From NCBI GenBank assembly GCA_030425145.1, contig JAUHVK010000005.1, positions 1 through 64,000 of the forward strand: a stretch of DNA of 64,000 bases, given 5' to 3'. Below the pieces are notes generated by a model. It had not been told where the DNA came from, made no database searches, and was given only the letters and a program-made list of their open reading frames with translations. Of this stretch, positions 11,043 through 35,503 are shown piece by piece. This DNA comes from Alphaproteobacteria bacterium. GTDB taxonomy: Bacteria > Pseudomonadota > Alphaproteobacteria > Rhodobacterales > Rhodobacteraceae. Each line of letters opens with the position of its first letter. Positions within the stretch are counted from its first letter, which is position 1. The position numbers and the translations under genes are program-made.

Positions 11043-11056
11043 TTGATCGCGATCAA
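11043..11056. promoter_or_regulatory. FNR/FixK-type box upstream of bactofilin-like gene
   Basis: TTGATCGCGATCAA is a perfect palindromic match to TTGAT-N4-ATCAA, the FNR/FixK consensus, ending 63 nt before the start at 11120. A FixK-like protein is encoded 2 kb away. It is the best of a series of such boxes between 11 and 35 kb. Confidence 0.82.
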
Positions 11057-11119
11057 TCTCTCTTGGCCCAAACGCGGTAGGGAGTCTTCATCCCTGACAG
11101 CTCGCTGAAGGAGTTTCTG

Positions 11120-12301
11120 ATGACCTTACATCGCTGCCTCGCCCCTTTTGCTTTGGCCTTGTGTGTGACGACAGGAGCGATTGCCGGAACGGACACAATG
11201 GAAAACGGTGGCGATACTTTTGTCACTGGTGGAACTGTGGCTAACACAATCGACACGCAGGGCGACACATTCGTCGCCGCCCGGTCCGCCGCAACGCGTG
11301 GCTCCTCGCAGGGGGATCTGCACGTCACAGGATTTGACGTCTCCGTCAGCGCCGATACGGCTGAGGATCTTTACGCCGCAGGAGTAACGGTGGTGATCCG
11401 GGGCAAAGTGGCCGAGGACCTCACCGCGGTCGGGTTCTCGGTGCGCACCGAAGATACCTCGAGCACACAGGGCAATGCGCGCCTCGTTGGCAATTCGTTG
11501 ACCATCGAAGGCCCGATTGACGGTGCCCTGACAGCGACCGGAACCGATGTTATCCTGAATGCGCCTGTTGCAGGCGACGTCCGCATCGTCGCGCACGAGA
11601 TCACCTTTGGTCCCGATGCAACCATCGGTGGCAACCTGAGCTACGCCAGCGGACGCGCAATAGACGTGCCTGAGCGCGTGGCGCCCTCGGCGCGCGTGAC
11701 TTTCGAGCAAATCGAACTGACCGACGCTTGGGAGGAATTCGATGAAGTCCGGCGGGAAATGCCGGTCATGCCAACGTTTATGTCATTGCTGTCGGGTTTC
11801 CTGATTTCGTTGCTCTTTTTCGTGGTGCTCGGCGCGATCTGCCTCGGCTTCCTGCCGAAACGTACAGAAGCGTTGCGCCGCAGGGTGGCGGATGCGCCGG
11901 GGAAAGCGGTTATGCTTGGGGTGATTGGGCTTTCGATGCTGATCGGACTGGTCCCGATCACCGCGATGACGATTATCGGCATACCATTTGTCCCCATCGC
12001 CCTTCTTGCGATCATTGTCGCCTGGGTGCTGGGATATGCGCTTGGAGCCTATAGCGTTGCTATGCGTGTCTGGATGGCCTTTGACGACGACGGGGAGGTC
12101 GGGAATGTTGGACGGCTCATCGTCTTTGCCGCAGCCATTGTCCTGATCGCGCTGCTGAACTTCATCCCGTTTGTTGGGTGGGTGGTGAACTACACGCTGG
12201 TGCTTCTTGGTGTCGGCGGCCTCACCGCCGCTGTCTTCAGCTACTTCATCGAAGACCCGGACGGCGCTCTCGATGTCGATATGACACCCGTAGAAGATTG
12301 A
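11120..12301 (+). CDS. Secreted/membrane protein with bactofilin-like repeats and C-terminal membrane helices
   Basis: A 393-residue protein with a signal peptide (residues about 1-22, ending AIAG). Residues about 25-190 form short Val/Gly/Asp/Thr-rich turns (DLYAAGVTVVIRGKVAEDLTAVG-like units) that read as a right-handed beta-solenoid, as in bactofilin or polymer-forming cytoskeletal domains. About 225-385 holds four or so membrane segments. The beta part would face the periplasm, unlike classical cytoplasmic bactofilins. It is preceded by a perfect FNR-type box and followed 22 nt later by a DUF2267 gene, so the two are probably one low-oxygen operon. The function is unknown. Confidence 0.75.
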   Translation: MTLHRCLAPFALALCVTTGAIAGTDTMENGGDTFVTGGTVANTIDTQGDTFVAARSAATRGSSQGDLHVTGFDVSVSADTAEDLYAAGVTVVIRGKVAEDLTAVGFSVRTEDTSSTQGNARLVGNSLTIEGPIDGALTATGTDVILNAPVAGDVRIVAHEITFGPDATIGGNLSYASGRAIDVPERVAPSARVTFEQIELTDAWEEFDEVRREMPVMPTFMSLLSGFLISLLFFVVLGAICLGFLPKRTEALRRRVADAPGKAVMLGVIGLSMLIGLVPITAMTIIGIPFVPIALLAIIVAWVLGYALGAYSVAMRVWMAFDDDGEVGNVGRLIVFAAAIVLIALLNFIPFVGWVVNYTLVLLGVGGLTAAVFSYFIEDPDGALDVDMTPVED

Positions 12302-12323
12302 GCTCACAGAAAGGAGGAATCTC

Positions 12324-12755
12324 ATGTCTGCACAGGGGCTCGAAACAATCGACAACGCCGCGCATACGACCCACGAATGGATCGGCGAACTGGCGGGACG
12401 GCTCGATTGGACATCAAAGCGCAACACGTTGCGACTGCTGCGCGTGACGATGCATCAGATCAGAGATCACCTGCACGTCAACGAAATGGCGCAGTTCTCA
12501 GCACAGCTGCCGCTTCTGATCCGGGGCATGTTTTTCGAAGGGTGGGTACCAAAACAAACACCAAACAAGGAACGGCACATTAAAGAATTTGTGCACGCAA
12601 TCGAAGAGCATGTTGGCAACGTCGAAGAATATCGCGGCCCCGAGGACATCACCCATGTGTTTCATCTGCTGAACGCGCATGTGTCCGAGGGCGAGATTTC
12701 GGATGTCCGGTCCAATCTTCCAAGAGACATTCGCGACTTCTGGCCCAGACCCTAA
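12324..12755 (+). CDS. DUF2267 domain protein
   Basis: A 143-residue soluble protein of the DUF2267 family. It has a helical N-terminal unit (WIGELAGRL...LRLLRVTMHQIRDHL) and the conserved LPLLIRGMFFEGW segment near residue 70, followed by HVFHLLNAHVSEGEISDVRSNLP, the duplicated second unit. An AGGAGG-like ribosome site precedes the ATG. Members of this family often sit in stress or hypoxia loci beside Usp and Hsp20 genes, but no biochemical role is established. It appears to share an FNR-controlled transcript with the preceding gene. Confidence 0.88.
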   Translation: MSAQGLETIDNAAHTTHEWIGELAGRLDWTSKRNTLRLLRVTMHQIRDHLHVNEMAQFSAQLPLLIRGMFFEGWVPKQTPNKERHIKEFVHAIEEHVGNVEEYRGPEDITHVFHLLNAHVSEGEISDVRSNLPRDIRDFWPRP

Positions 12756-12809: not shown

Positions 12810-13481
12810 TCAGTCGCCACCTTCCGACAGCGCCAGAAGGGCGTCGGGACGAAGGATTTTGATTGTGTGAATATTTTCGATCGAGATGACGCCGCTCTTG
12901 CGAAGCTGGGTGAGCGTGCGGCACACGGTTTCGGTGGTGACACCCAGAAAATCGGCCACGTCAGTGCGCTGCATCGGCAATTCGAACTGGATGCTGCCAT
13001 CAATCTTCTTGCCCACACGCTGCGCCAGAACACCGAGGAAGGACGCAACCTTTTCCACGGCGGATTTCCGGCCAAGCATCATGAAATGGTCCTGCATCGC
13101 GCTGATTTCGCGCAATGCCGCCTGAAGCAGGTGCTGGTGAAGCTCTGGCGCGCCTTCACCGCTTTCGAGGGCGGAGCGGCGGATTGGTTGCAGACAGGAA
13201 TCTACCAGTGCGTCGCAATCGGTGTTGTGCAGCCCATTGGACGGAAACCCAACAATATCACCGGGGAACCCAAAGGCGATAACCTGACGACGGCCGTCTT
13301 CCAGCATACGGGTCACACGCAACAGGCCGGATTTGACCTGATACAGCCACTCGACTTCATCACCTTCAAAGAAAAGCGAGCCACCGGCGCGAACACGTGT
13401 GTCTTGCCCGATGTGGCGCATTTCGGCGAAGGTGGGAGTGGTTTCACAATTTGAAAATTCTGTAGGCAAAGTCACGTACAT
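12810..13481 (-). CDS. Crp/Fnr-family transcription regulator, FixK/DNR-like
   Basis: A 223-residue regulator. A cyclic-nucleotide-type beta-roll (FFEGDEVEWLYQVKSGLLRVTRMLEDGRRQVIAFGFPGDIVGF) is followed by a long dimer helix (AMQDHFMMLGRKSAVEKVASFL) and a winged helix (MQRTDVADFLGVTTETVCRTLTQL). The recognition helix keeps the Glu and Arg of the E-xx-S-R pattern, with Cys in place of Ser, so a TTGAT-type half site is expected. It lacks the N-terminal Cys cluster of FNR/FnrL and so should not bind a 4Fe-4S cluster, which fits FixK or DNR. The ATG at 13481 follows a G-rich ribosome site. A GTG at 13508 is possible but poorly spaced. It is the likely regulator of the boxes nearby. Confidence 0.87.
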   Translation of the reverse strand: MYVTLPTEFSNCETTPTFAEMRHIGQDTRVRAGGSLFFEGDEVEWLYQVKSGLLRVTRMLEDGRRQVIAFGFPGDIVGFPSNGLHNTDCDALVDSCLQPIRRSALESGEGAPELHQHLLQAALREISAMQDHFMMLGRKSAVEKVASFLGVLAQRVGKKIDGSIQFELPMQRTDVADFLGVTTETVCRTLTQLRKSGVISIENIHTIKILRPDALLALSEGGD

Positions 13482-13648
13482 TCGTCGGCCCCCCGAAATT
13501 GATTGCACTCCGGCGAAGGTGACCTAAGGTTGCAACAGGAGTTTCGTATCTTGGTAATGGAATGTAATTTTTTGTAATTTGAGATGAGCGGTAAGCCAGG
13601 TTCACAGGCGGGTCATTCGGATTGTCTTTGTTTTGTTGGGGGCGCGTC

Positions 13649-14398
13649 GTGAAAAACCAGACGATACTTGTGGTCGAAGACGATCCAAAGATTCGCACTC
13701 TATTGCGCAACGTCCTGGAAGGTGGGGGGTTCGACGTTGTCGAAGCCGGAACCGCGAGTGAAGTGATGGCTGCCCTGACCGAGCAATCAATTGCTCTGGT
13801 GACGCTTGATATCCAGCTTGGGAAGGACAATGGCCTCGACCTTGCCCGGGACATTCGGAAAACGTCGCCAGTCCCGATCATCATGGTAACGGGGCAGGAC
13901 GATGTGATCGACCGGGTTGTCGGGCTGGAAGTTGGAGCCGATGATTACATCACCAAACCGTTTCACGTCCGCGAGGTTGTTGCCCGCATTCGAAGCGTTT
14001 TGCGCCGTAGCGCGCAAAGTGAAACACAGACGCAGGAGAAACCGGCCGGTGAAGCGCTTTCCTTTGATAAAATGATCGCGCATCTGGACCGCATGGAACT
14101 CGTAGACCGCATGGGCAAGGATTGCGGGCTGACAAGCGGTGACTTCAAGCTGTTGACTGTCTTTCTCGAACGTCCTGGCCGTGTATTGTCGCGCGATCAG
14201 CTTATGGACCTGACGGGTGGCATCGAGCGCAATCCGCTGGACAGGGCCATCGACAATCAGGTCGCGCGCCTTCGCAAGAAGATCGAGCGCAACCCGTCCG
14301 AGCCGAAACTGATCAAAACCGTACGCGGGGTTGGGTATTTGTTCGCGGGTGACGTGAAAACGGTTCAGGACTCCGACTCCTCCAGCAAAAGCGCCTGA
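13649..14398 (+). CDS. OmpR-family response regulator
   Basis: A 249-residue two-component output protein. The receiver domain (residues about 5-118) has the acidic pair in VVEDD, the phospho-acceptor Asp in VTLDIQL, the Thr in MVTGQDD and the Lys in ITKPF. A linker is followed by the winged helix (about 140-240) ending LIKTVRGVGYLF. The start is GTG at 13649 after GGGGG. An in-frame TTG at 13622 is less likely. The gene is divergent from the FixK-like gene, and its 3' end overlaps the convergent hybrid kinase by 34 nt. Whether that kinase is its partner is not shown. Confidence 0.92.
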   Translation: MKNQTILVVEDDPKIRTLLRNVLEGGGFDVVEAGTASEVMAALTEQSIALVTLDIQLGKDNGLDLARDIRKTSPVPIIMVTGQDDVIDRVVGLEVGADDYITKPFHVREVVARIRSVLRRSAQSETQTQEKPAGEALSFDKMIAHLDRMELVDRMGKDCGLTSGDFKLLTVFLERPGRVLSRDQLMDLTGGIERNPLDRAIDNQVARLRKKIERNPSEPKLIKTVRGVGYLFAGDVKTVQDSDSSSKSA

Positions 14399-15918
14399 AG
14401 CCTGCGGGCCAAATCGGACTGTCGATACGGTTTGTGCAAAATCTCGTATTGCACCCCGTCAGCCAAGTTTTGCGTAACAACATCGCTTGCATAACCGGAG
14501 GTTAGCAGAAGCTTGATCTCCGGAAATTCCCGCGCGACTTTTTCAGCCAGGTCATAGCCATTCAAATCCCCCGGCATGACCAGATCGCTGAACAGGATAT
14601 CGACCTTGAGTCCATCTTTGAGCATCGCATAGGCCTGATCCCCGTCCGCTGCTTCTGCGGTTTGAAATCCGAGGTCTTCAATTCGCGCGAGTGAAAGCTT
14701 CCGAACCTTCGGATTGTCTTCAACAATCAGAACGGTCAGGCCTTTCCCGATCTGGGAACCCTCGGTCGCAGCCTTTCCGAACGATGTCACCGATTGAAAA
14801 TCGCCAACGTCAGGGAGGGCAGGGAAGTAGAGACCAAAACTCGTCCCCAGTCCCGGTTCGCTGTAGAGCGTGATGTGCCCGCCGGACTGGCCGACAAACC
14901 CGTAAACCATCGCAAGGCCAAGACCGGTTCCGCCTTTTTTCTCTTTCGTTGTGAAGAACGGCTCAAACGCTCGTTTCTGCGCCTCTTCGTCCATGCCGGC
15001 GCCATTGTCACTGACCGAAAGCCGGACATAGTCACCCGGCTTAACACCGATCTCTTGCGCGACATAGGAATCGTCAACGGTGACGTCATTAACCGCGATG
15101 AGCAACTCGCCCTTTTCGTCCATCGCGTCCCGCGCATTGAGCGCGAGGTTCATCAGCGCCGACTGGAATTGAACCGGGTCGATCATTACGTTGCGCAACT
15201 TCGGGGCGTATTCAGTTGTAATCCGCATCTGTGAGGCAAGCGTACGTTTCAGTATTGCCAGCGCATCTTCACACAGAGCACGCAAATCCGCTTCGACAGG
15301 CATCAGATTGCTCCGTCGCGCGAATACCAACAATCGGGACGTCAGATCGGCTCCCATCTCGGCGGCATCCAGGGCGTCTTCGATCAGCGCCGCCATCGCA
15401 TCATTCGGGTGACGCATCTGTAAGAGTTCAAGATTGCCGATAATGACGGTTAACAGATTGTTAAAATCATGCGCGATGCCGCCCGTCATCTTGCCGACAG
15501 CATCCATTCTTTGCGATCTGGAAAGCGCCTCTAGCGTCGCATTTCGCCGTGTCAGATCGTGCAGGATCGCAACAAACATGCGTTTGTCGTCAACCTGCGC
15601 ATTCCCAACCGAAAGATGAAGCGGAAAAACCGAACCGTCCTTACGCAGACCCTCCACATCTCGTCCGATGCCGATGATCCGCTTCTCGCCGGTCTCCTTG
15701 TGATGCCGGATAAATCCGTCATGCTGACCAGCAAGCGTTTCGGGCATCAGAATTTTGACATTGTACCCAATCAGTTCCTCGCTCGAACGCTGAAACATCG
15801 CGCAGGTTGCCGGGTTCACATCGACAATCACGCCGCTCTCATCAGCGAGCACAATTGCATCAACTGCCGCCTTGAGCACGGCGTCCAGCAGGGGGCCGCT
15901 CTGCACCTGGTTGTTCAT
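14365..15918 (-). CDS. PAS hybrid histidine kinase with C-terminal receiver
   Basis: A 517-residue cytoplasmic sensor without membrane helices. A PAS domain (about 8-125) is followed by a HisKA with the phospho-acceptor His in GGIAHDFNNLL (about residue 150), an HATPase domain (DNGAGMDEEAQKRAFEPFFTTKEKKGGTGLGL), and a receiver (about 395-512) with Asp in LFSDLVMPG and Lys in LHKPY. The PAS resembles FixL (NVKILMPE...HDGFI...GEKRIIGIGR), but an Arg stands where FixL has its haem-ligating His (my alignment by eye), so haem oxygen sensing is unlikely. The start at 15918 is preferred to the open frame up to 15969. It lies 72 nt downstream of the M50 protease gene and is probably cotranscribed with it. 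Confidence 0.9.
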   Translation of the reverse strand: MNNQVQSGPLLDAVLKAAVDAIVLADESGVIVDVNPATCAMFQRSSEELIGYNVKILMPETLAGQHDGFIRHHKETGEKRIIGIGRDVEGLRKDGSVFPLHLSVGNAQVDDKRMFVAILHDLTRRNATLEALSRSQRMDAVGKMTGGIAHDFNNLLTVIIGNLELLQMRHPNDAMAALIEDALDAAEMGADLTSRLLVFARRSNLMPVEADLRALCEDALAILKRTLASQMRITTEYAPKLRNVMIDPVQFQSALMNLALNARDAMDEKGELLIAVNDVTVDDSYVAQEIGVKPGDYVRLSVSDNGAGMDEEAQKRAFEPFFTTKEKKGGTGLGLAMVYGFVGQSGGHITLYSEPGLGTSFGLYFPALPDVGDFQSVTSFGKAATEGSQIGKGLTVLIVEDNPKVRKLSLARIEDLGFQTAEAADGDQAYAMLKDGLKVDILFSDLVMPGDLNGYDLAEKVAREFPEIKLLLTSGYASDVVTQNLADGVQYEILHKPYRQSDLARRLQALLLEESES

Positions 15919-15990: not shown

Positions 15991-17121
15991 CTAGTTCGAG
16001 GTCATAAGATCGGAAAGCTGCAGGTGTCGAACAAGATCCGAAAGCGAGATCACACCAAGAAGTTTGCCGTCTTTCACAACAAGAAATTTGCGCTGCCCTG
16101 TTGTTGTAATCTCATTCATCAGATCTTCGATGGAGACATCCGGATCAACAATCGGGCTGGCATTCAACTCTGCAAAGACATCCCCAACCCGCGTACTTTG
16201 CCAGTTTTCCCGGTCAATTCCCGACAACAAAGCGTGGTTGATGTGACCAAGGAGCACGTCATTTTCGACAACAGGCACAAAGCTAAGCCCATTTCGCAAT
16301 ACCACCTGATTGACGAAATCAGTGAGGTTGACGTCGGGCTCAACCGTGATGGGAGGCGTATTCATCAGATCGCGCACAGTCCGCTTATCAAATACAACTT
16401 TAGCAAGCTGTGACTGGTAACTTGATCGTGCGGCAACAAGAAGAAACCCGCCAATCATAATCTGCCACATGGCGGCTATGATCGCGCCCTGAAACAGCGA
16501 CATTATCCCAAATCCCATCAGGACGTAGGCGAAAAAGATGCCGGATTTCGCTGCTGTCTCCGTTGCGCTGAGCAGGTTTCCGGTTCGATGCCACATATAG
16601 GCCCTGAAAATACGCCCGCCGTCCAATGGGAAGGCCGGGACCAGATTAAAGATTGCGAGTACGAGATTAATGGTCGCGAGATACGAGAAGATGCTCGCCA
16701 CAATCGTCATTTCCCCGACAAAGGCTGCGATCCACGACAGGAACAAAAAGCTCACGGACAGCGCCATGCTCATGATTGGCCCAGCAATGGCGACGAGGAA
16801 CTCGACTTCCGGAGAACGTGGCTCAGATTCCATTTCGGCCACGCCGCCAAACAGAAACAGCGTAATTCCACCAATCGGAAGGCCATAGCGACGCGCGACC
16901 ACCGAATGTGCAAGCTCATGGAGCAGAAGGGACGCGAAGAACAGGATTGTGGCGGTGATGGCCATCGATACATAGACTGCCCCGGTTTCACCCGGCAATG
17001 CTGTAGGGAAGTAGTGTTGAGACAAGCTCCAGCTGATCAGCGCGAAGATAATCAGCCAACTCGGGTCGATTTTGATGTCAAACCCGCTGATTGAAAAGAG
17101 TTTCACCGCATTTGAAAACAT
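15991..17121 (-). CDS. Site-2-type M50 metalloprotease with tandem CBS domains
   Basis: A 376-residue membrane protease of the Rip3/SpoIVFB-like group. Zinc ligands are in LLHELAHSVVARRYG (HExxH at 68-72) and in NLVPAFPLDGGR (Asp ligand). About six membrane segments run to residue about 235. Two CBS domains follow (about 245-375: MNTPPITVEPDVNLTDFV, then SPIVDPDVSIEDLMNEI). CBS domains usually bind adenine nucleotides, so proteolysis may respond to energy state. A TTGAT-TTGC-CTCAA box lies 47 nt upstream. The hybrid kinase gene follows. The substrate is unknown. Confidence 0.92.
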   Translation of the reverse strand: MFSNAVKLFSISGFDIKIDPSWLIIFALISWSLSQHYFPTALPGETGAVYVSMAITATILFFASLLLHELAHSVVARRYGLPIGGITLFLFGGVAEMESEPRSPEVEFLVAIAGPIMSMALSVSFLFLSWIAAFVGEMTIVASIFSYLATINLVLAIFNLVPAFPLDGGRIFRAYMWHRTGNLLSATETAAKSGIFFAYVLMGFGIMSLFQGAIIAAMWQIMIGGFLLVAARSSYQSQLAKVVFDKRTVRDLMNTPPITVEPDVNLTDFVNQVVLRNGLSFVPVVENDVLLGHINHALLSGIDRENWQSTRVGDVFAELNASPIVDPDVSIEDLMNEITTTGQRKFLVVKDGKLLGVISLSDLVRHLQLSDLMTSN

Positions 17122-17168: not shown

Positions 17169-17182
17169 TTGATTTGCCTCAA
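17169..17182. promoter_or_regulatory. FNR/FixK-type box upstream of the M50 protease gene
   Basis: TTGATTTGCCTCAA (TTGAT-N4-CTCAA) differs from the FNR consensus at one position. It ends 47 nt before the minus-strand start at 17121, the same spacing as the related box before the phosphoribosyltransferase gene. Confidence 0.65.
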
Positions 17183-17300: not shown

Positions 17301-18830
17301 CTATCGACGGTTTGACTGCTCACACCCCAAGGTAGAACAGACGCGTTCTATCGTTGCCTTTGGCGTTCCGAGCGCAGAGACTTTCTGCCAATCCGTCGGC
17401 GCATCCAATCCAGCACATTGCGCGCGAAGAACGGTTTCGTCGGCGTCCGAGGCATCCTTCTCCCGCATCGACACACGGTTAATAAGCACCTTTAGAGGCG
17501 CTTCGAGCCAGATCGTCTGCACCGCGACGTCCTGACTCATTCCTAGGTCCATGACCGACGCGCGCAGTTCAGGATCGAGAAAAGTCGCGTCAATCAGAAC
17601 CGAATGACCGGCCGAGAGGATTGCTTCGGCTCGGCTGAACAGGTGCGTGTAAACGGCCGCGCGCGCCGAAGGGCTGTAGCTTGTCGCGGGCGCGTGTGTT
17701 GTCTCTTTGAGACCCAATGCCGCCTTACGTTCGAGATCCGTGCGCAGATGTACAGCGCCGGGCGCTGCGCCGATGAATGGTGCGACATCACGCGCTATCG
17801 TGGTCTTGCCTGTCCCCGACAAACCGCCAATCACGACGAGTTTTGCGGGCGGTCGGGCAAGGAAGTTTCTTGCATTATCCAATGTGTTCATCGGTTCGGC
17901 GCCGGGCGCGGTGTGGGTCGCGGTGGACGTTTGCACCGCCACCATCGCGTGAATCGCAGACCGAACAGCGAGGAAAAGGGGCAGGGTGGCCAAACCGCTG
18001 TCTTCCGCTCCACCCGCTTCCAACAAATAAGCCGCAAGCACGATGTTGGCTGCACGGGTGAGACCGCGCCGATTGAGGTCCATCAGGAGAAAAGCGAGGT
18101 CGTAGAGCACGTCACAAGTGCCAAGCACCTCGTCGAACTCGAGCGCATCGAAGGGCACCGGCACCCCATCAAGCAGCACGATATTGCGCAGGTGCAAATC
18201 GCCATGACAGCGACGGACATGGCCGTCCTCGGCGCGTTTCCGGAGAAGCGGTGATACCCGGCGCCATTCGACACGAGCCGCCTGTGAGAAGGCCGCTATC
18301 CGCTCGCTCCCAAGCGCGTCGTGCATGCCTGCGAAAACGCGGCCCAGCTCGTCGAGGATGTCACCAATCAGGGCCGCCCCGTCCGCATCCCTGTGCGAGG
18401 CTTGCGCGTGGAACCGGAATAGTGCTTCGCCGAGATCATGCGCGAGGTTGTCGTCGATCCCGTGCCGATCGGCAATGACGGCTAGTTCGGCTTCTTTCGG
18501 AAACCGCCACATGCGCAGAACCCATTCAACTGGCTCACCTTCGCCGTCAAAGGCAAGTGTGCCATTTGGTTCTCGTGTGACGGCCACAACATCCCGATAG
18601 ATCATCGGGGCAAAGGGTTGATTCAGCGCCAGTTCACGCCGCAACATCGCCTCACGCAATGCCAGCGTGGAGAGGTCCATGTAGTCGTATGTGACGTCAC
18701 GTTTGATTTTCAGCGCGACCTCACCAGCGAGAAAGATGATCGCGCCATGCGTTTCTACAATTTCGACAGGACCGCCACCGGGGTGACCAGTAGCGGAGCT
18801 CAGAAGGGTGATCACGTCTTCTTGTGGCAT
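17301..18830 (-). CDS. Fused aminoglycoside-phosphotransferase-like kinase and P-loop ATPase
   Basis: A 509-residue two-domain protein. Residues about 1-325 are APH/choline-kinase-like, with RRCHGDLHLRNIVLLDG (catalytic loop) and PFDALEFDE. About 335-505 is a zeta-toxin/gluconate-kinase-like P-loop domain with GGLSGTGKTTIARDVA (Walker A) and LIDATFLD. The architecture is common in proteobacteria but its substrate is unknown. The ATG at 18830 (MPQEDVITLL) is preferred, since an upstream frame to 18935 would run through the regulatory box. A near relative of the first domain is encoded at 28410. Confidence 0.87.
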   Translation of the reverse strand: MPQEDVITLLSSATGHPGGGPVEIVETHGAIIFLAGEVALKIKRDVTYDYMDLSTLALREAMLRRELALNQPFAPMIYRDVVAVTREPNGTLAFDGEGEPVEWVLRMWRFPKEAELAVIADRHGIDDNLAHDLGEALFRFHAQASHRDADGAALIGDILDELGRVFAGMHDALGSERIAAFSQAARVEWRRVSPLLRKRAEDGHVRRCHGDLHLRNIVLLDGVPVPFDALEFDEVLGTCDVLYDLAFLLMDLNRRGLTRAANIVLAAYLLEAGGAEDSGLATLPLFLAVRSAIHAMVAVQTSTATHTAPGAEPMNTLDNARNFLARPPAKLVVIGGLSGTGKTTIARDVAPFIGAAPGAVHLRTDLERKAALGLKETTHAPATSYSPSARAAVYTHLFSRAEAILSAGHSVLIDATFLDPELRASVMDLGMSQDVAVQTIWLEAPLKVLINRVSMREKDASDADETVLRAQCAGLDAPTDWQKVSALGTPKATIERVCSTLGCEQSNRR

Positions 18831-18921
18831 GCCATTACCCCGACCGACCGGCTCAGCGGTGTCAAGCGCCAAGTTGCGCGCGTATCGTGATGGCAAGATG
18901 ACGGAACCGCGGCGCAATCCG

Positions 18922-18935
18922 TTGATCAAAATCAA
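18922..18935. promoter_or_regulatory. FNR/FixK-type box upstream of the APH-like/ATPase gene
   Basis: TTGATCAAAATCAA matches TTGAT-N4-ATCAA perfectly. It lies 91 nt upstream of the minus-strand start at 18830. The plus-strand DnaJ-family gene begins 402 nt away, so control of that gene is less likely. Confidence 0.75.
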
Positions 18936-22250: not shown

Positions 22251-22264
22251 TTGACGACGATCAA
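22251..22264. promoter_or_regulatory. FNR-type box in the usp / antiporter divergent promoter
   Basis: TTGACGACGATCAA (TTGAC-N4-ATCAA) lies 75 nt from both the minus-strand Usp start (22175) and the plus-strand antiporter start (22340), so it could serve either or both genes. Confidence 0.65.
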
Positions 22265-28423: not shown

Positions 28424-29462
28424 TTTGGTTGCAGAAGTCGAGCAGCTCCTATCAGTACAATCGACCGTCGAAATCAAGGAAACATCGAAATCGTGGGTCT
28501 TTCTGACGGAAGACCGGGTCTACAAACTAAAAAAACAGATCCGGGACGAGTTGCAGGACCTGACGCCGCTTCGCGCACGACACGATAATGCCTTGTCGGA
28601 GGTCGATCTCAACCGCCGCCTGGCACCGGACACTTACACTGGTGTGGTGCGCCTGGGTCGTCAGGCGCGCGATGGGCTGGTCATCGACGATCCGGAGGCT
28701 GAGACCATCGACTGGCTGGTCGAAATGCGCCGCTTGCCGCAAGATCAAATGCTTGACGTCCTGATCGCAGACGGTGCGTCCCGGCAGGAATTGAGCAAGG
28801 GCATTTTGAGACTGGTCCCAATTCTGACCGGGTTTTACCAAACGGCACCAGCCACGAGACTGACTGCATCCGAGTTAATGACGGTGCTGGAAAGCCAGAT
28901 TTCCTTAGCACGCGACGTTCTGCTAAACTCTGCTTTTGCCCAGTATCATGGTGTCGCGACCGAGGTAATTGGCAAGATTGAAGCCTTATGGCCAGACATC
29001 AATGTAGAGTTTCAGAAGCGCGTTGACGCGGGCGCATTTGTGGAAGGTCACGGAGACCTGCGGCCCGAACATATCTGCTTGACCAAAAGCCCGGTCATCT
29101 ATGATTGTCTCGAATTCAACCGGACGCTGCGACTTGTCGATCCGTACAGCGAGCTTTCGTTTTTCGGGCTCGAATGTACCGTGTTTGGTGCCGATTGGAT
29201 TGGTCCGTTTCTCATGAACGCGCTAGAGCCCGATCTTGGTCCACGACCGGGGGGTTTTCTCATGGCCGTTTACGAGGCATACCACGCCGTAATGCGCGCG
29301 CGGCTTTGTCTGGCGCATCTGCTTCAGGAGCACCCGAGAACGCCGAAGAAATGGCCACCGCTTGGGACCTCCTATCTTGAGATCGCCAAGCGCCGGCTGG
29401 ATCAGGCCTGCATCAACTCCAGAAGCCGGGACGCGAGAGCGGGGATGCCGGAGACGATGTGA
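28410..29462 (+). CDS. Aminoglycoside-phosphotransferase-like kinase of unknown substrate
   Basis: A 350-residue APH-fold protein: SWVFLTEDRVYKLKKQ (ATP-binding lysine region), then GAFVEGHGDLRPEHICL (catalytic Asp in the Brenner loop) and VIYDCLEFNRTLRLVDPYSELSF (metal-binding Asp). It resembles the first domain of the fused kinase at 17301 but lacks the ATPase half. It is translationally linked to the nucleoside transporter (14-nt overlap), so phosphorylation of an imported nucleoside-like compound is possible, though unproven. Its 3' end runs 61 nt into the convergent PRPP synthetase gene. Confidence 0.85.
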   Translation: MSKSDLVAEVEQLLSVQSTVEIKETSKSWVFLTEDRVYKLKKQIRDELQDLTPLRARHDNALSEVDLNRRLAPDTYTGVVRLGRQARDGLVIDDPEAETIDWLVEMRRLPQDQMLDVLIADGASRQELSKGILRLVPILTGFYQTAPATRLTASELMTVLESQISLARDVLLNSAFAQYHGVATEVIGKIEALWPDINVEFQKRVDAGAFVEGHGDLRPEHICLTKSPVIYDCLEFNRTLRLVDPYSELSFFGLECTVFGADWIGPFLMNALEPDLGPRPGGFLMAVYEAYHAVMRARLCLAHLLQEHPRTPKKWPPLGTSYLEIAKRRLDQACINSRSRDARAGMPETM

Positions 29463-30337
29463 GCGCCGGTGGCGCGCGCTGTCGAAACGCTGTCGCTGAC
29501 CATGACGCGCGACAATTCCGGTGTTTCAAATAGAGTTTCCGAGCCTTGCGCAAAAAGCCCATGCGCCGCAACGGCCACGCACTCATACGCCCCAAACTCC
29601 AGCGCGGCGCGGGCGGCGGAAAGGAGTGTGCCACCCGAAACAATCATGTCATCGACAATGATCACACGCTTGCCTGCGACATCCCCCGCAAACGCACCAC
29701 TCGTGCGGATACCGCCGCTGCGGCGTTTGTCGCGGAAGGCGAATTCCACGGGCTCACCGAGTTCGGTTTCCAGTGCTTCGCGAAACAGTTGCGCGCGCTT
29801 GATTCCGCCGGGGTCGGGCGACATCACGCAAAGCGGTTTGTCGGCAAGGTCTCTTGCGATCTCACCGACAAAGACTGTCGCCATCTCCAGATGCAGGGTT
29901 TCACACCGAAACGCGTTTTGGAACGCCATCACGTTATGGGCTTCAAGTGTCATCAGACGGTCGCAACCGGTGGCTTCGATTATCTGCGCCACATAGCGCA
30001 GCGTCAGCGGGTCAAAGGGTTTTGTCCGGCGGTCCTTGCGTCCGTAACAGAGATACGGGCAGATCACGGTGATCCGTGCCGCTCCGTGGTCCCGCAGCAC
30101 TGACATGAAGAACAGAAGGCGACACAGGCGGTCATGTACCGAAAGCCCATCAGCGCTGTGAAGCGATTGAACAACGTAAATATCAGCGTCGCGAACTGGT
30201 GTGAGGGGCCGTAGTTTGAACTCGCCATCTTCAAATGATCGCACCTCAAGTGGCGCAAGCGTCGTGTTCAAAGCCTGTGCAAGCGGCGCACCTATGTCGT
30301 GGGCTTCCGGAAGGGCGAAAAGCAGCATGACACTCAC
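29402..30337 (-). CDS. Ribose-phosphate pyrophosphokinase (PRPP synthetase family)
   Basis: A 311-residue enzyme of the Prs family: FEDGEFKLRPLTPVRDADIYVVQSL at the N-terminus, ICPYLCYGRKDRRTKPFDPLT (ATP loop), VMSPDPGGIKRA, and the PRPP loop VIIVDDMIVSGGTLLSAA. It makes PRPP from ribose 5-phosphate and ATP. Sequence details such as the CYGRKDRR motif suggest an accessory class rather than the main housekeeping Prs. The GTG start overlaps the stop of the upstream phosphoribosyltransferase gene (GTGA), giving tight coupling. An ATG 9 nt further in is the alternative. Confidence 0.9.
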   Translation of the reverse strand: MSVMLLFALPEAHDIGAPLAQALNTTLAPLEVRSFEDGEFKLRPLTPVRDADIYVVQSLHSADGLSVHDRLCRLLFFMSVLRDHGAARITVICPYLCYGRKDRRTKPFDPLTLRYVAQIIEATGCDRLMTLEAHNVMAFQNAFRCETLHLEMATVFVGEIARDLADKPLCVMSPDPGGIKRAQLFREALETELGEPVEFAFRDKRRSGGIRTSGAFAGDVAGKRVIIVDDMIVSGGTLLSAARAALEFGAYECVAVAAHGLFAQGSETLFETPELSRVMVSDSVSTARATGAHIVSGIPALASRLLELMQA

Positions 30338-31002
30338 GCGGCACCATGCGGTGCAAAGCGATCCACGGTTTGACGTACAGTGGCGTCATCGACCTGGGGA
30401 AAGCTGCGATAAGCCCCGCCGACGGCGCCGAAAAACTGCAAGTCGCTGAGGCAGATCACAGTGTCGACCAACCCGTCGAGATCCCGTTCAAGACTGGTCG
30501 GCCCGACGGGCAAGGCCACAATGATGCGCGCCGGTTCTTCGCCCCGAAGAGCGGCAAGCGACGCACGAAGTGTTGCACCCGTAGCAACGCCGTCATCAAC
30601 CACAACAACCGTCTTGCCTTTGATGGGCAACGGCGCGCGGCCCTCCAAATAGGTTTTGCGCCGTCGTTCGATTTCGGGAAGCAGATCTCGTCCCATCGCC
30701 TCAACTTCGGCACGCGATAACCGGTGATGCCTGGCAATCGCGTCATTTACCACAAATCGCGGGGTGGCACCGTCCGTCACCGCGCCAAGCGCAAGCTCCG
30801 GATGGCCGGGGGTTCCGATCTTGCGAACAAGGATGAGATCAAGGGGCAGATTGTGCGCTTCGCAAATCTCAGCAGCCACCGGAACGCCACCACGGGGCAA
30901 GGCCAGAACAACGGTTTCATCCGGATCAAGAGGCGGAAGAGCCACAGCCAATTGCTGACCCGCGTCAACGCGGTCTCGGAATATCAGGGGGTTTCCGGCC
31001 AT
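30334..31002 (-). CDS. Phosphoribosyltransferase-family protein
   Basis: A 222-residue type I PRTase. FRDRVDAGQQLA leads to LALPRGGVPVAAEI, and the PRPP-binding signature VVVVDDGVATGATLRASLAAL lies near residue 130. It is of the ComF/YbdM-like erm-associated class, whose substrate is unknown. A TTGAT-AATT-CTCAA box lies 46 nt upstream. Since the PRPP synthetase gene overlaps its stop, enzyme and PRPP supply are made together, pointing to base or nucleoside salvage. The specific base cannot be read. Confidence 0.9.
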   Translation of the reverse strand: MAGNPLIFRDRVDAGQQLAVALPPLDPDETVVLALPRGGVPVAAEICEAHNLPLDLILVRKIGTPGHPELALGAVTDGATPRFVVNDAIARHHRLSRAEVEAMGRDLLPEIERRRKTYLEGRAPLPIKGKTVVVVDDGVATGATLRASLAALRGEEPARIIVALPVGPTSLERDLDGLVDTVICLSDLQFFGAVGGAYRSFPQVDDATVRQTVDRFAPHGAA

Positions 31003-31048: not shown

Positions 31049-31062
31049 TTGATAATTCTCAA
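31049..31062. promoter_or_regulatory. FNR/FixK-type box upstream of the PRTase-PRPP synthetase operon
   Basis: TTGATAATTCTCAA (TTGAT-N4-CTCAA) ends 46 nt before the minus-strand start at 31002. It has the same half-site variant and nearly the same spacing as the box before the M50 protease gene. Confidence 0.68.
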
Positions 31063-31072
31063 TGCAAAACCG

Positions 31073-31759
31073 TCAGGGCAGGTCGCGCAAGTCGAGGCTG
31101 AAATCCTCGTTCACCCGGTAGACTTTCTTGTTCGGAATCTCGTCCCAAACATCGAATTGCGTGACGGGCTCAGAGGCAAATTCAACCGCGCGGTAGCTTC
31201 GCTTTGGTTCATCGTGCACATGTGGTTTCTTGCAGATCGGGCACTCGAACGCGTGGTCGCGAAAAAGATGCACGAGGCTTCTGTTGTATCGCGATCCCAC
31301 CATCTGCTCACCATCCGTGAGAACAATGTTCAAGCCGGGCCGCGCATCCGGGTCGATGGCATCGACCCATGCGATGATCTGTGACAGCCCGCGTTGCACA
31401 ATCTCCAGAAGCCCATGTTCCGGATGACGCAGAAAGAGGCTCATCAGGTAGCGAAAGATGTGTTCGCTATCGGTCTGCCCCTCAACACCATTGCGGTGGA
31501 TTGGGTCCATCGATTCGAGCAATGCATGTCTGAACTCATCAAAATGCGGCACAGTGCCGTTATGGGCAAAGATTCAGCGCCCATAGTGAAACGGATGAGT
31601 GTTTTCGATGCTTATGGGACCAACCGTAGCGCGGCGCACGTGGGCGACGACGGTCTTTGCATAGACCTTCGACGCCTTTTGACTGAAATGTCCTCCGTGA
31701 AATGCCGCCCATATTTGTCTTTCGATGGCCGAGATCCGGGCTTGCCTTGAACCAATGCT
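31073..31759 (-). pseudogene. Class II glutamine amidotransferase, broken by two stops and N-truncated
   Basis: The minus-strand frame reads the body of a YafJ-like Ntn-type glutamine amidotransferase: KTVVAHVRRATVG, then ENTHPFHYGR, a TGA at 31574-31576, and on through IFAHNGTVPHFDEF to GVEGQTDSEHIFRYLM and the natural end at 31073. Family members have Trp (TGG) where the TGA stands. Further upstream a TAG (31760-31762) interrupts the same frame. The N-terminal segment with the catalytic Cys (MCR...) is missing beyond it. A GTG just after the TGA (31552) could start a 159-residue fragment, but it would lack the active site. This is a clear pseudogene unless the assembly is wrong. Confidence 0.82.
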
Positions 31760-32047: not shown

Positions 32048-32061
32048 TTGATTGATCTCAA
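32048..32061. promoter_or_regulatory. FNR/FixK-type box upstream of pfkB
   Basis: TTGATTGATCTCAA (TTGAT-N4-CTCAA) ends 36 nt before the proposed pfkB ATG at 32098. It is one mismatch from the consensus and has the same CTCAA half as two other boxes of this region. Confidence 0.62.
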
Positions 32062-32097
32062 TTGCAGCGTGCCTCTATGGGCGCATTCTGTAGTTCA

Positions 32098-33063
32098 ATG
32101 AAAACGCAAGCCATCTCCGAGATCCTGACGGTCACCCTTAACCCTGCATTGGATTACGCCACGACGGTTCCGAGGATCGTCGCAAATCGAAAGCTCTACT
32201 GCGGACCAGCCCGGGTTGATCCGGGTGGTGGTGGTGTGAATGTTGCGCGGGCTGTTGGCAGGCTGGGCGGAATGGCGACCGCGCTTGTTGTCACCGGCGG
32301 TGCCACCGGGAAAAAACTGATGACACTGCTGTCAACTGAACCCGGCGTTCGCACCGTGCCGTTTGAGGTGGCGGGAGAAACGCGTTTCAGCTTTGCGGCA
32401 ACCGATGATGAAACCGGCGATCAGCAACGCTTCAGCCTTCCCGGCGAGGCTCTGACGGCGATGGAGCGCACCAATCTCCTGAAAGCCATTAAAGACGCCA
32501 CGCCCCGCGATGGTCTGGTAGTGTTGAGTGGAGGTATCGCGCCGGGGCTGCCCGACGACTTTCTCAAGAGAATTCAATCCAAAATCCGTTCAAGGTCGCC
32601 GCGAATTGTTGTGGATACCTCGCGCGCGCCGCTGCGGTCCCTGATCGAAACTCCTATCGCGCCGCTGTTTCTTCTCAGGGTGGACCAGAAAGAAGCCGCT
32701 CAGGCCGCGCAGCATTCCATGGACACCTTGGCAGACAGTCTGTTGTTTGCGCGCACTCTTGTTGCGCGTAGCGTCGCGCATCATGTCGTGACAGGACGTG
32801 GTGCCGAAGGATCGCTTATGGTGACGCCAGACCGGGCCTTTCTTTGCCACGCACCTCAGGTCCCCGTCAAAAGCAAGATTGGGGCAGGGGATGCGCTTGT
32901 CGGCGCCATGGTTCTGGCCTTTGCGCGCCACGACCCGCCCGAACAGGCCCTGAAATGGGGTGTCGCCGCCGCAAGCGCGACGGTTGGTACAGAAGGAACC
33001 GCGCTTTGCGACCTCGAAACTGTGACGGCGCTGTTGCACGACTGCTATATTGAAGCGATCTGA
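32098..33063 (+). CDS. pfkB: PfkB-family sugar kinase, probable 6-phosphofructokinase II / 1-phosphofructokinase
   Basis: A 321-residue ribokinase-fold enzyme. It opens ILTVTLNPALDYAT and has PGGGGVNVARAVGRLG (sugar site), then the C-terminal anion-hole motif KIGAGDALVGAMVLAFA with the catalytic Asp. The N-terminus is characteristic of the Pfk-2/LacC/FruK branch, which phosphorylates fructose 6-phosphate, tagatose 6-phosphate or fructose 1-phosphate. The ATG at 32098 has no strong ribosome site. In-frame alternatives are an ATG at 32077 and a TTG at 32062. An FNR-type box just upstream suggests induction when oxygen is low, when glycolytic flux would matter. Confidence 0.87.
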   Translation: MKTQAISEILTVTLNPALDYATTVPRIVANRKLYCGPARVDPGGGGVNVARAVGRLGGMATALVVTGGATGKKLMTLLSTEPGVRTVPFEVAGETRFSFAATDDETGDQQRFSLPGEALTAMERTNLLKAIKDATPRDGLVVLSGGIAPGLPDDFLKRIQSKIRSRSPRIVVDTSRAPLRSLIETPIAPLFLLRVDQKEAAQAAQHSMDTLADSLLFARTLVARSVAHHVVTGRGAEGSLMVTPDRAFLCHAPQVPVKSKIGAGDALVGAMVLAFARHDPPEQALKWGVAAASATVGTEGTALCDLETVTALLHDCYIEAI

Positions 33064-33086: not shown

Positions 33087-34868
33087 ATGGGTCTCGAGGT
33101 CGCGTTTGTCATTGTCCTGTTGTCAGTCGCTATCATAGCGATTTCTCTGGAATTGGTCGCCGTCGACGTAATGGCGCTGGCCTTGCTGGTCGCGGTGGTT
33201 GCAACGGGCATCCTTCCGGTCGACGCCGCGCTGTCGGGTTTTTCCAGCGAGGTCGTGATCATCCTCGGGTCAGTATTTGTATTGGCTGGGACAATGACCC
33301 GGGCGGAACTTCCCGAAGAGGTGGCAGAGGCCCTGATGAAGGCCACAGGCAAAGGAGAACGCTCCGGTCTTGCGATGGTCATGGGTGTCTCGGCTGCGCT
33401 TTCGATGTTGCTCAGCAACACCAGCACAAGCTCTGTCCTGACCCCTGCCGTTCTGCAATACGCGAAACGCTCGGGCACCAGTGCAAGCCGCCTGCTCATG
33501 CCAATGGCATTCGCGTCGCTTATGGGTGGGACAATGGTGCTTATCGGCACCTCCACCAACCTGTCGGCCAGCGGTATGATCACCGGGCTTGGGATGGAGC
33601 CATACGCGTTTTTTGAATTCTTTGTCGTAGGTGGGGTCGTCACCCTTTCCGGGATCGCCTTCATGGTTCTGATCGGACGACACCTGATCCCCGACCGGCG
33701 GCCGCTCGATCTGGTGGAAGATTACGGCATGAGCGGATACCTCGCCGTTCTGAAATTTGGTGACGGTTCCGAGTCTGAACGCACGCAAATAGAAGATCTG
33801 GATCTTGCAGCGCTGGAATTGGAGCCGCTGGCGGTTATTCGCAACAATATCCGACTTGCCGCCAATCCATTGCGCCAGCTGCGCCACGGGGATCGTTTGA
33901 TCGTTCGGGGAACTGTAGACGGGCTGTTGCGGGCGAAGGACGACAAGCGCTTTGACATCGAAACGGATTCTGAACGCGACAACCAGGGTGTGCGGCCCGA
34001 CGATGCCGGACTCGGTGAAGCGGTCGTCATGCCCCATTCCCGCCTCGTCGGACAGCTGCTTGGACGCACCACGTTCTTTCGCCGCCGCCGGTTGAAGGTT
34101 CTGGCCGTCCACCGAAAAGGGCGCGCCTTCGCGGCCAAACTTAGCAATCTGCAACTTCAGGCCGGGGACGTGCTTCTGGTGCAAGGGGCGACCGAAGATC
34201 TCGAAAACCTTAGAGGGAATCCCGATTTGTGGGGTCTGGCGGCGGTCGAAGCGCCGAGACCCACCCTCGTACAGGGGTTTATTGCAGCAGGCTTGCTGGC
34301 ACTGAGCGTCGTCCTGTCGGGGTTTGGTCTATTGCCGCTTTCTATCGCGTTGCTTGCCTCTTGCCTGATCCTCATCTTTGGCGGGATCGTATCTGCACAA
34401 GACGCGTACCGGATGATTGACTGGCGTCTGCTTGTCATGATTGCCAGCATGACGGGCTTTGGACTGGCGATCTTTGAGACCGGCGCGGCCAGTCTGGTGG
34501 CAAATCTGATCGTCGATTGGGTTGCCCCTTTTGGAGTCACGGCCAGCCTGCTGGCACTTGGCGTTGTAACGATTGCGTTGACCCAGCCCATGTCAAACGC
34601 GGCTGCGGTTCTGACCGTGGTTCCGGTGGCCGTGTCGACGGCTGGCATACTTGGCATCGATCCCCGTCCTGCCGTGGTTATGGTGACGCTTGCCGGCTCT
34701 CTCTCGTTCATCGCGCCACTCGAACCGGCGTTGATGATCGTCTACGGGCCGGGGCGATACCGCTTCGTGGATTTTGTCCGGGTGGGAGGACCGTTAACGC
34801 TGCTGACTTTGGGCGTTCTGGTTTATCTTGTTCCGGTGATCTGGCCTCTCCATCCGGCATCTTTCTAG
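33087..34868 (+). CDS. SLC13-family permease with two TrkA-C (RCK C-terminal) domains
   Basis: A 593-residue inner-membrane protein. The first membrane half (about 1-205) holds SNTSTSSVLTPAVLQYAKRSG and the substrate-site segment GGTMVLIGTSTNLSASGM (the S-N-T-like signature). Two soluble TrkA-C modules occupy about 210-390 (GDRLIVRGTVDGLL, AGDVLLVQGATEDL). The second membrane half has TQPMSNAAAVLTVVPVA. Members move dicarboxylates, sulfate or other anions with Na+. The substrate here is unknown. It starts 24 nt after pfkB and may be cotranscribed. Confidence 0.92.
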   Translation: MGLEVAFVIVLLSVAIIAISLELVAVDVMALALLVAVVATGILPVDAALSGFSSEVVIILGSVFVLAGTMTRAELPEEVAEALMKATGKGERSGLAMVMGVSAALSMLLSNTSTSSVLTPAVLQYAKRSGTSASRLLMPMAFASLMGGTMVLIGTSTNLSASGMITGLGMEPYAFFEFFVVGGVVTLSGIAFMVLIGRHLIPDRRPLDLVEDYGMSGYLAVLKFGDGSESERTQIEDLDLAALELEPLAVIRNNIRLAANPLRQLRHGDRLIVRGTVDGLLRAKDDKRFDIETDSERDNQGVRPDDAGLGEAVVMPHSRLVGQLLGRTTFFRRRRLKVLAVHRKGRAFAAKLSNLQLQAGDVLLVQGATEDLENLRGNPDLWGLAAVEAPRPTLVQGFIAAGLLALSVVLSGFGLLPLSIALLASCLILIFGGIVSAQDAYRMIDWRLLVMIASMTGFGLAIFETGAASLVANLIVDWVAPFGVTASLLALGVVTIALTQPMSNAAAVLTVVPVAVSTAGILGIDPRPAVVMVTLAGSLSFIAPLEPALMIVYGPGRYRFVDFVRVGGPLTLLTLGVLVYLVPVIWPLHPASF

Positions 34869-34895
34869 CTTCAGGCCCAAGGACCAGATCGGCAA

Positions 34896-34909
34896 TTGAG
34901 GTCGCTCAA
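34896..34909. promoter_or_regulatory. FNR-like palindrome upstream of the Host_attach-family gene
   Basis: TTGAGGTCGCTCAA (TTGAG-N4-CTCAA) is a perfect palindrome, extended by AAT/ATT on its flanks (34894-34911). Both half sites carry the G/C variant. It lies 153 nt before the ATG at 35063, further than the other boxes, so an intervening leader or a different regulator is possible. Confidence 0.5.
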
Positions 34910-35062
34910 TTGCTCTGTTCCGCCAACCGCTATGGTCAACGCATCGACCAATGATGTGGGTACTTATGACCAAACCCGGGGGCCTTTCAAAGGCAGTCGC
35001 GCTGTCCGCGGGCATGAACCGCTCCGGTCGCAAAATGTCCCTCAGAACAAGGAGAGCGAGAC

Positions 35063-35503
35063 ATGAAACAGAAGAAAACTTGGGTCGTTGTGGCAAATGG
35101 CGACAAGGCGCGCCTATTTGATCTGCCAGCACGCAACACTCCACTGGTGCCTTTGGATGATCATGTTTGGAAAGCGCCGGAGATCCATGAATATGCCGAC
35201 ACTCAGGGCATGTCACATTCAAGCGTAGGATCATCGCAACGGCGCATGGCTCCGCGCACTGAGCCCGACGACCAGGCGCTCGACGCATTTGCCCGCGATA
35301 TCAGCGAAAAACTCTCAGCGGCCCGCAAGCGCGAGGAGTTCGAACGTCTGGCGCTTGCCGCCGCGCCGAGGCTCATGGGGTATCTGCGAGAGCATCTGGA
35401 TTCTGACGTCAAAGCGACAATCTGGATGGAGATTGACCGGGACTTTACACACCTTCCGCTGGACGAGCTACGCAAGGTACTTGAGCCACATCTTAACTCG
35501 TAG
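35063..35503 (+). CDS. Host_attach-family protein (archaeo-eukaryotic release-factor-like)
   Basis: A 146-residue soluble protein: KTWVVVANGDKARLFDL at the N-terminus and the conserved tail REEFERLALAAAPRLMGYLREHLD, as in the PF10116 family. That family was named for a role in Rhizobium or Agrobacterium host attachment and was later grouped with bacterial eRF1-like proteins. The ribosome site GGAGAGCGAG precedes the ATG. Its 3' end overlaps the convergent ACP gene by 11 nt. The role here is not readable. Location in the FNR-box island suggests stress physiology. Confidence 0.87.
   Translation: MKQKKTWVVVANGDKARLFDLPARNTPLVPLDDHVWKAPEIHEYADTQGMSHSSVGSSQRRMAPRTEPDDQALDAFARDISEKLSAARKREEFERLALAAAPRLMGYLREHLDSDVKATIWMEIDRDFTHLPLDELRKVLEPHLNS

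Follow-up and report, generated by a model that had tools for sequence, protein, structure and literature searches.

What controls the cluster of FNR/FixK-type boxes (TTGA-N6-TCAA) that lies between positions 11043 and 35503 of a Rhodobacteraceae contig (JAUHVK010000005.1, assembly GCA_030425145.1)? This 24-kb segment is called the island here, and the 64,000 nucleotides (nt) of the contig that were analysed (positions 1 to 64,000) are called the window. The original prediction had placed seven boxes in promoter positions in the island, at 11043, 17169, 18922, 22251, 31049, 32048 and 34896, and had read them as one regulon around a FixK-like regulator. We consider it likely that the island is a low-oxygen regulon with a sensing circuit of its own, composed of a FixL-like hybrid kinase (hFixL), the response regulator FxkR and FixK.

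All seven boxes were found at these positions, together with an eighth, at 22293, that was absent from the first list. Counts of boxes in relatives, here and below, include the genome under study.

11043 to 11056, plus strand: box at -77 of the gene for a beta-helix membrane protein (motif scan)
17169 to 17182, minus strand: box TTGAGGCAAATCAA toward the operon of an M50 protease with CBS domains (M50-CBS) and hFixL, at -61 (motif scan)
18922 to 18935, minus strand: box upstream of the APH-AAA kinase gene, at -99 (motif scan)
22251 to 22264, plus strand: box between the divergent universal stress protein (Usp) and exchanger genes (motif scan)
22293 to 22306, plus strand: box TTGAGCGAAGTCAA, at -47 of the exchanger gene (motif scan)
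31049 to 31062, minus strand: box TTGAGAATTATCAA toward the phosphoribosyltransferase (PRTase) gene, at -60 (box in 2 of 3 genomes)
32048 to 32061, plus strand: box upstream of PfkB, 36 nt ahead of the chosen start, ATG 32098 (box in 2 of 3 genomes)
34896 to 34909, plus strand: weak box that starts 167 nt ahead of the Host_attach gene (motif scan)

The genome (4,914,890 bases in 111 contigs, 99.94% complete) contains 113 TTGA-N6-TCAA sites, as compared with 22 for the reversed pattern. Eight of them fall in 11043-34909 (23,867 bases), where 0.51 are predicted from the rest of the genome (Poisson P 7e-8; ~3e-5 when corrected for ~410 windows). About 50 of these loose sites were listed individually, so that a density rather than a full map is available for them. 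The island density is far above background, and the equal genome-wide density named beforehand as an argument against the prediction was thus not observed. The form TTGAYN4RTCAA occurs 42 times in the genome, as compared with 5 for its reversal, and 3 of the 42 are in the island. TTGATN4CTCAA occurs nine times, four of them in the window: one at 45140 and three in the island, where 0.03 are predicted (P 4e-6). These 51 sites were listed in full; six fall in this 23.9-kb stretch and at most three in any other, and six or more arose in 0.05% of 20,000 random placements. The whole window has 10 boxes, against a mean of 1.1 under an order-2 Markov model (maximum 4 in 60 simulations). All eight island sites are intergenic in our gene list, for which we chose the starts 18836 (APH-AAA kinase) and 32080 (PfkB); intergenic DNA makes up 11% of the island. 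To this extent the promoter positions hold, as does the spacing of 46-47 nt given for the 17169 and 31049 boxes. Two sites are weak points: the 34896 box starts 167 nt ahead of the gene assigned to it, and if the APH-AAA kinase gene is read in its longest TTG-initiated frame, the 18922 box falls partly within it. Because TTGA/TCAA palindromes are common and these were picked out by eye, the one at 34896 being badly placed, chance has to be considered; it is so improbable as to be negligible, being refuted for the set as a whole by the genome and simulation controls and by the conservation across genera described below.

A candidate for the control of the boxes is encoded within the island itself:

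12810 to 13481, minus strand: FixK-type Crp/Fnr regulator (Pfam cNMP_binding and HTH_Crp_2; MYVT start common to relatives)
13554 to 13578, minus strand: K-box-like direct repeats ATTACA-N4-ATTACA-N4-ATTACC in the fixK-fxkR gap (pattern scan)
13649 to 14398, plus strand: FxkR-like OmpR-type response regulator (Pfam Response_reg and Trans_reg_C; start codon chosen by us)
14365 to 15918, minus strand: hFixL-like hybrid kinase (Pfam: FixL-like PAS, HisKA, HATPase, receiver)
15991 to 17121, minus strand: M50 protease with a CBS pair, upstream of hFixL and in the same direction (Pfam)

By sequence, the three adjoining regulatory genes correspond in composition to an oxygen cascade already known: a FixK-type regulator, an FxkR-like regulator and a FixL-like kinase. 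The Crp/Fnr protein, the FixK-like regulator that had been noticed in the middle of the island, has FixK2 (4i2o, E 2.8e-32) as its best PDB match, and the NCBIfam FixK and FnrL models both match it under their cut-offs. No Fe-S cysteine cluster of the form CX2CX5-8C is present in the protein. The recognition helix reads ETVCR, and in the alignment the FixK2 chain as deposited has Ser in place of this Cys; we take the aligned position to be C183 of FixK2 and the crystal to be of the C183S form. This Cys recurs in 5 of the 18 FixK helices recovered from relatives, the remainder having Ser. The FxkR-like protein is 48% identical to fxkR9 of Rhizobium 3841 (the best of 28 genome matches, the next being 45%). 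The hFixL-like kinase, noted earlier simply as a hybrid kinase, is 44% identical to hFixL9 of Rhizobium 3841 over ~500 residues and has FixL PAS structures among its matches. Its PAS domain carries His66 and Arg86, 20 residues apart, which are presumably the heme ligand and the distal Arg. As FxkR-like and hFixL-like genes stand beside fixK, with a K-box-like repeat in the gap, this kinase is probably the oxygen sensor of the circuit.

Conservation was assessed in a sample of 198 genomes of the family, in which each genus is represented once. The hFixL-like kinase was scored as present above ~370 bits (170 of the 198 genomes pass E 1e-60, the weaker matches being other hybrid kinases by identity and coverage) and was found in 22, of which 20 keep His66 and Arg86. 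In Rhizobium, hFixL acts on FxkR, which controls fixK through a K-box, GTTACA-N4-GTTACA, and FixK in turn acts at anaeroboxes, TTGAT-N4-ATCAA (PMC7888657; here and below, papers cited by PMC number are cited from excerpts). The K-box-like pattern has three matches in the window, as compared with 0.18 expected, and two of these form the repeat at 13554-13578. Both fixK and fxkR were fetched for 19 of the 22 kinase genomes, and the gap between them, with 100 nt added on each side, contains RWTACN-N4-RWTAC in 17 of the 19 (window included). The gaps of G079 and G036 have no pattern match, only a near match by eye, and that of G184 is unusually long (~1.3 kb). In the 790 kb of fetched sequence, 23 of 25 pattern matches fall in fixK-fxkR gaps. 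The scan also gave one repeat at each of the two published K-box places of pRL9; a plasmid of Sulfitobacter sp. DSM 110093 has one repeat in its fixK-fxkR gap and two elsewhere in the record. What is conserved is thus a degenerate form of the K-box, the halves in the window reading ATTACA, not GTTACA.

These results are consistent with a cascade in which hFixL, presumed to bind heme, would sense falling oxygen and activate FxkR by phosphotransfer. FxkR would bind the repeat at 13554-13578 and turn on fixK, and FixK, which is without Fe-S cysteines, would bind the TTGA-N6-TCAA boxes and activate the surrounding stress, transport and metabolic genes. The predicted outcome is survival under oxygen or energy limitation.

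The sensor genes themselves may be among the targets. The gap between M50-CBS and hFixL is 21-72 nt, depending on the start chosen, and the 17169 box precedes the pair. In relatives, a box was found within 300 nt of M50-CBS in 14 of 20 orthologs (12 of 16 with the kinase and 2 of 4 without it), at -61 to -72 in ten and at -92 to -254 in the other four. Eight of the ten read TTGAG-N4-(A/G)TCAA in the gene sense, with TTGAG distal. A box of its own precedes hFixL in 8 of 22 stretches, in 7 of these at -66 to -84; one more lies at a contig edge. No exact box was found upstream of fxkR in 20 genomes. FixK binding ahead of the M50-CBS/hFixL operon would raise the circuit's own sensor, which suggests positive feedback on the sensor operon and would make the circuit self-amplifying.

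The remaining genes in and beside the island that bear on the regulon are the following:

11120 to 12301, plus strand: membrane protein with a predicted beta-helix (strands 25 to 197) and C-terminal helices (no Pfam family; AlphaFold2 model)
12324 to 12755, plus strand: DUF2267 protein (Pfam PF10025)
17301 to 18836, minus strand: APH plus AAA_33 kinase, the APH-AAA kinase (Pfam)
21336 to 22175, minus strand: tandem universal stress protein (Pfam Usp, two stretches)
22340 to 23377, plus strand: Na/Ca exchanger family protein (Pfam PF01699)
29402 to 31002, minus strand: phosphoribosyl pyrophosphate (PRPP) synthetase-like and PRTase genes with a 4-nt overlap (Pfam, NCBIfam)
32062 to 33063, plus strand: PfkB-type hexose kinase, start probably 32077 or 32098 (Pfam; NCBIfam TIGR03168 above cut-off)
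33087 to 34868, plus strand: CitMHS/SLC13-type transporter with TrkA_C, 23 nt past PfkB (Pfam)
35063 to 35503, plus strand: Host_attach/baeRF family 12 protein (Pfam)
35729 to 40838, minus strand: operon of 2-oxoacid dehydrogenase E2 and E1 and acyl-CoA synthetase (Pfam)

Several boxes stand at set positions across genera. All 11 close orthologs of the beta-helix protein have a box between -59 and -78, but of the weaker homologs only 2 of 15 have one; the box of the exchanger is found in 5 of 5 orthologs, four times at -46 to -48 and once at -122. Host_attach has a box in 4 of 6 genomes, at -65 to -71 in the three other than our own. This cross-genus conservation supports the original view of FNR/FixK-type sites serving a shared regulon, as far as sequence can indicate. 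The list of controlled genes stood in part only: SLC13 has no box of its own in the window and none in 2 genomes, and the box of Host_attach is far from it here. No box was found at PRPP synthetase in 2 genomes. When all mechanically called genes in the fetched stretches were compared, genes of island families had a box upstream in 29 of 59 cases, and the remaining genes of these stretches in 41 of 331 (odds ratio 6.8, P 1e-9). Presence of the genes was also associated. M50-CBS occurs in 20 of the 198 genomes, and 16 of these 20 also encode the kinase (P 2e-15); the beta-helix protein, at >300 bits, occurs in 11, of which 10 have the kinase (P 3e-10).

The beta-helix protein had been called bactofilin-like. 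A Foldseek search of the PDB with its AlphaFold2 model (mean pLDDT 77.9, pTM 0.51) gave no match at E 0.001 and 91 poorer ones with E values of up to 10, and the bactofilin identity was dropped. In a separate observation, ten loci without an exact box (L193-L196, L199, L202, L224, L226, L231 and L232) have TTGAT-N4-NGCAA ahead of the same genes, between -56 and -128; this may be a variant of the half-site.

The regulon may reach past 35503. The dehydrogenase/synthetase operon has a one-mismatch box at 40896-40909 (-71), and 3 of 4 close operon orthologs have such a box between -68 and -71, as compared with 0.7% of random places, for a range picked post hoc; an exact box was found in 0 of 5 genomes for the acyl-CoA synthetase (ACS) gene and in 0 of 4 for E1. 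The operon adjoins the module in G116, G193 and a plasmid of Tropicibacter oceani.

A number of observations weigh against control of the island by its own circuit. Conservation is weak for some targets: a box is lacking in 9 of 14 genomes for DUF2267 (5 have one of their own, the window copy none), in 6 of 11 for Usp (present in 5), in 20 of 28 within 300 nt of the APH-AAA kinase gene (present in 8), and within reach of M50-CBS in 6 of 20 orthologs. The APH-AAA kinase was for this reason rejected as a core target and kept as a local one; its co-occurrence with the kinase is also weak (6 of 18 strong matches, P 0.007). All co-occurrence P values and counts in relatives ignore phylogeny. The island FixK is 36% identical (117 bits) to Rhizobium FixK9b and 35% identical (129 bits) to the FnrL of its own genome; as FixK9b is no closer than FnrL, the island protein is only a candidate ortholog of rhizobial FixK. 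Autoregulation of FixK through a box was rejected, since no exact box lies within 350 nt upstream of fixK in 19 genomes. In three of the 22 kinase genomes the stretch that was fetched contains no fixK, and in two of these it contains no fxkR either. The kinases of G074 (L063) and G173 (L057) are without His66 and Arg86, with fixK and fxkR kept; heme sensing is thus not universal in the module, which may answer another signal in these two.

That boxes are poorly conserved at Usp, DUF2267 and the APH-AAA kinase also bears on an account in which only a subset of the sites matters and the island is a loose neighbourhood, a few boxed genes among unrelated transport genes (Bmp/ABC, APH2). In the relatives boxes were found in 1 of 4 genomes each for Bmp and the MerR-like gene, and in none for ABC (0 of 4) and DUF5765 (0 of 3). 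We regard this account as possible but doubtful, given eight sites in 24 kb where 0.5 are expected and the 6.8-fold odds ratio for the island families. For the core genes it is compatible with a FixK-controlled regulon.

The remaining points against the circuit concern FnrL. A separate FnrL with CX2CX7C is encoded in the same genome, on contig C63, with a box in its flank, and FnrL could bind the island boxes because it shares the motif; FNR, FixK and DNR motifs have been described as virtually identical (PMC2908626). Direct activation of Usp genes by FnrL has been reported in Dinoroseobacter shibae (PMC5398030). Strict boxes elsewhere in the genome lie ahead of a COX1-family oxidase gene and of fixG, and also ahead of cydA and of a radical-SAM gene next to fnrL; these placements count in favour of a low-oxygen regulon under the island circuit as well. 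(The window excluded, the genome has 39 strict sites; 25 were fetched, and 5 of these are inside predicted frames; among ten proteins scanned beside strict sites, the other six were an ABC protein, a ChaC-like protein, an MFS transporter, a second Crp/Fnr protein, a sulphur transporter and one without a family.) Boxes also persist where the kinase is absent, at 2 of 4 M50-CBS genes and at the beta-helix gene of G188. A TTGAG half-site as a signature specific to FixK was rejected, the TTGAG share being alike with and without the kinase (summed ratio 0.78 vs 0.69, P 0.35). The median number of TTGAG-N4-ATCAA sites per genome is 9 with the kinase and 3 without it; that of the canonical TTGAT-N4-ATCAA is higher in kinase genomes as well (10.5 vs 6).

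FnrL may on these grounds be the main binder of the boxes. It is unlikely, however, that they belong to FnrL (or a DNR-type regulator) alone, with island fixK, fxkR and hFixL as mere neighbours that have other targets: the kinase is strongly associated with island genes (16 of 20 and 10 of 11), the repeat in the fixK gap is conserved, and boxes precede the sensor operon itself. We favour control by the hFixL-FxkR-FixK circuit, with FnrL, the cluster-bearing global regulator, probably binding the same boxes at still lower oxygen.

Two further boxes of the window lie beyond the island, at 45140 and 52240; the last 4 bases of a methylase gene fall within the latter. Side observations in the window were as follows:

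45140 to 45153, minus strand: box TTGAGGAAAATCAA, of the form TTGAG-N4-ATCAA, toward a zinc-type alcohol dehydrogenase gene (44105-45076), 63 nt ahead of its start and outside the range first noted
51140 to 52243, plus strand: N6/N4 DNA methylase with a RAMA domain, which we take to be CcrM-like, near a tRNA-Phe gene at 50180
28365 to 29462, plus strand: frame that is APH-like by eye, with no Pfam match; it ends the Bmp/ABC operon and overlaps the PRPP synthetase gene tail to tail
31073 to 31552, minus strand: class-II glutamine amidotransferase-like frame that matches only the C-terminal half of the Pfam profile, under cut-off; it looks interrupted upstream and is perhaps a broken gene

Does the module also occur on plasmids? 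A kinase match was obtained in 716 plasmid records, 40 of which were listed, and three Rhodobacterales records and pRL9 were examined. Among these, the Sulfitobacter sp. DSM 110093 plasmid carries the whole module: kinase, FxkR, FixK, three Usp genes and a CBS gene. This plasmid (L238) is typed as mobilizable, and the neighbours of the circuit on it are ccoNOQP/ccoGHIS and the Usp genes. On the Tropicibacter oceani plasmid, the kinase and the synthetase/dehydrogenase operon are present; fixK and fxkR were not found in the 34 kb read. In Sulfitobacter sp. SK012 the match covers the C-terminal part of a CheB-type gene, 4.5 kb long, and the FxkR-like gene next to it is shortened; SK012 is not a clean carrier, and it also has an APH-AAA kinase there and a homolog of the beta-helix protein elsewhere on the plasmid. 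Among the matches listed for named genomes, at least two of eleven other island proteins accompany the kinase at 1 of 80 loci, most matches being other hybrid kinases. In G187, the hFixL-like gene is divided between the two ends of one contig of 119 kb (C3), which suggests a circular replicon carrying the module.

A wider reading is offered tentatively, and we hold it with less than even confidence: that this is a self-amplifying, mobile low-oxygen survival module on Rhodobacterales plasmids, in which dormancy and energy genes like those under DosR of Mycobacterium have come, independently, to be governed by a different kind of oxygen switch. FixK would perhaps be a cysteine-free derivative of FNR with an origin separate from that of rhizobial FixK, with a Cys in 5 of 18 cases where FixK2 has its redox-active one.

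If the circuit operates as proposed, a cascade described in symbiotic nitrogen fixers would extend to further bacteria, the named carriers of which include isolates from marine sediment, and the genes under its control would serve survival and not nitrogen fixation. Several proteins whose function is unknown would become boxed targets: the beta-helix membrane protein, DUF2267, M50-CBS and, as a local case, the APH-AAA kinase. The role of DosR-like gene sets could also be studied in bacteria other than mycobacteria. If the sensor operon is controlled by the output of the circuit, a switch-like, possibly bistable, entry into the low-oxygen state would be expected.

How does the island compare with known systems? 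The closest parallel considered, the hFixL-FxkR-FixK circuit of Rhizobium etli and R. leguminosarum, likewise has a heme-PAS hybrid kinase, FxkR, a FixK without the cysteines, a K-box and anaerobox targets (PMC7888657, PMC4999443), features assigned here from sequence. It differs in that the island targets are stress and energy genes, and in that the box here precedes the sensor operon, whereas the anaerobox proposed for Rlv3841 is one through which fxkR9 would be repressed (PMC7888657). Coupling to nitrogen fixation belongs to the rhizobial context and is not a requirement of the mechanism; it does not apply here, no nifH above cut-off being found in the 99.94% complete genome (best match 31 bits, cut-off 394). 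The FnrL/FNR regulon of Rhodobacterales shares the DNA motif and the oxidase and Usp targets, but senses oxygen directly through Fe-S and has no kinase or K-box stage. A published count gives 76 FixK-type proteins in 44 alphaproteobacterial species (PMC2908626). For those of its 50 genomes that belong to the Rhodobacterales, another paper states that FnrN is the only such regulator, and the hFixL-FxkR-FixK circuit of this order seems not to be described in the excerpts of that paper (PMC4999443). No description of it was found in the literature searched by title and start of abstract, outside subscription papers.

DosR is a NarL-type regulator with the GAF-heme kinases DosS and DosT. The island regulators are, by Pfam, of OmpR, PAS and Crp/Fnr types, neither a NarL-type regulator nor a GAF-heme kinase being among them, so that the likeness to DosR suggested in the original prediction extends to gene families and not to their control. 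We assume further parallels in the CBS part of Rip3, in an APH-AAA protein (Rv2004c) and in a PRTase (Rv2030c). The DosR regulon includes the metalloprotease Rip3 (Rv2625c), PfkB (Rv2029c) and Usp proteins (PMC5309233), and thus has M50 protease, PfkB and Usp in common with the island by family names, without sequence comparison. In Burkholderia cenocepacia the low-oxygen-activated lxa locus holds several Usp genes and a phosphofructokinase; a Crp/Fnr regulator has been suggested for it, and FixLJ lies upstream of the homologue of that regulator in B. dolosa (PMC6127331). The co-located Usp and phosphofructokinase genes and the suggested Crp/Fnr regulator resemble the island, as compared by annotation names; the locus differs in having no sensor circuit inside it, according to the excerpts of the same paper, and the system named is FixLJ, not hFixL-FxkR. 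We class the island neither with the DosR regulon nor with the lxa type; judged by its genes, we read it as an oxygen circuit of the rhizobial type that is set in a stress island, while the genome has no nifH match that passes the cut-off.

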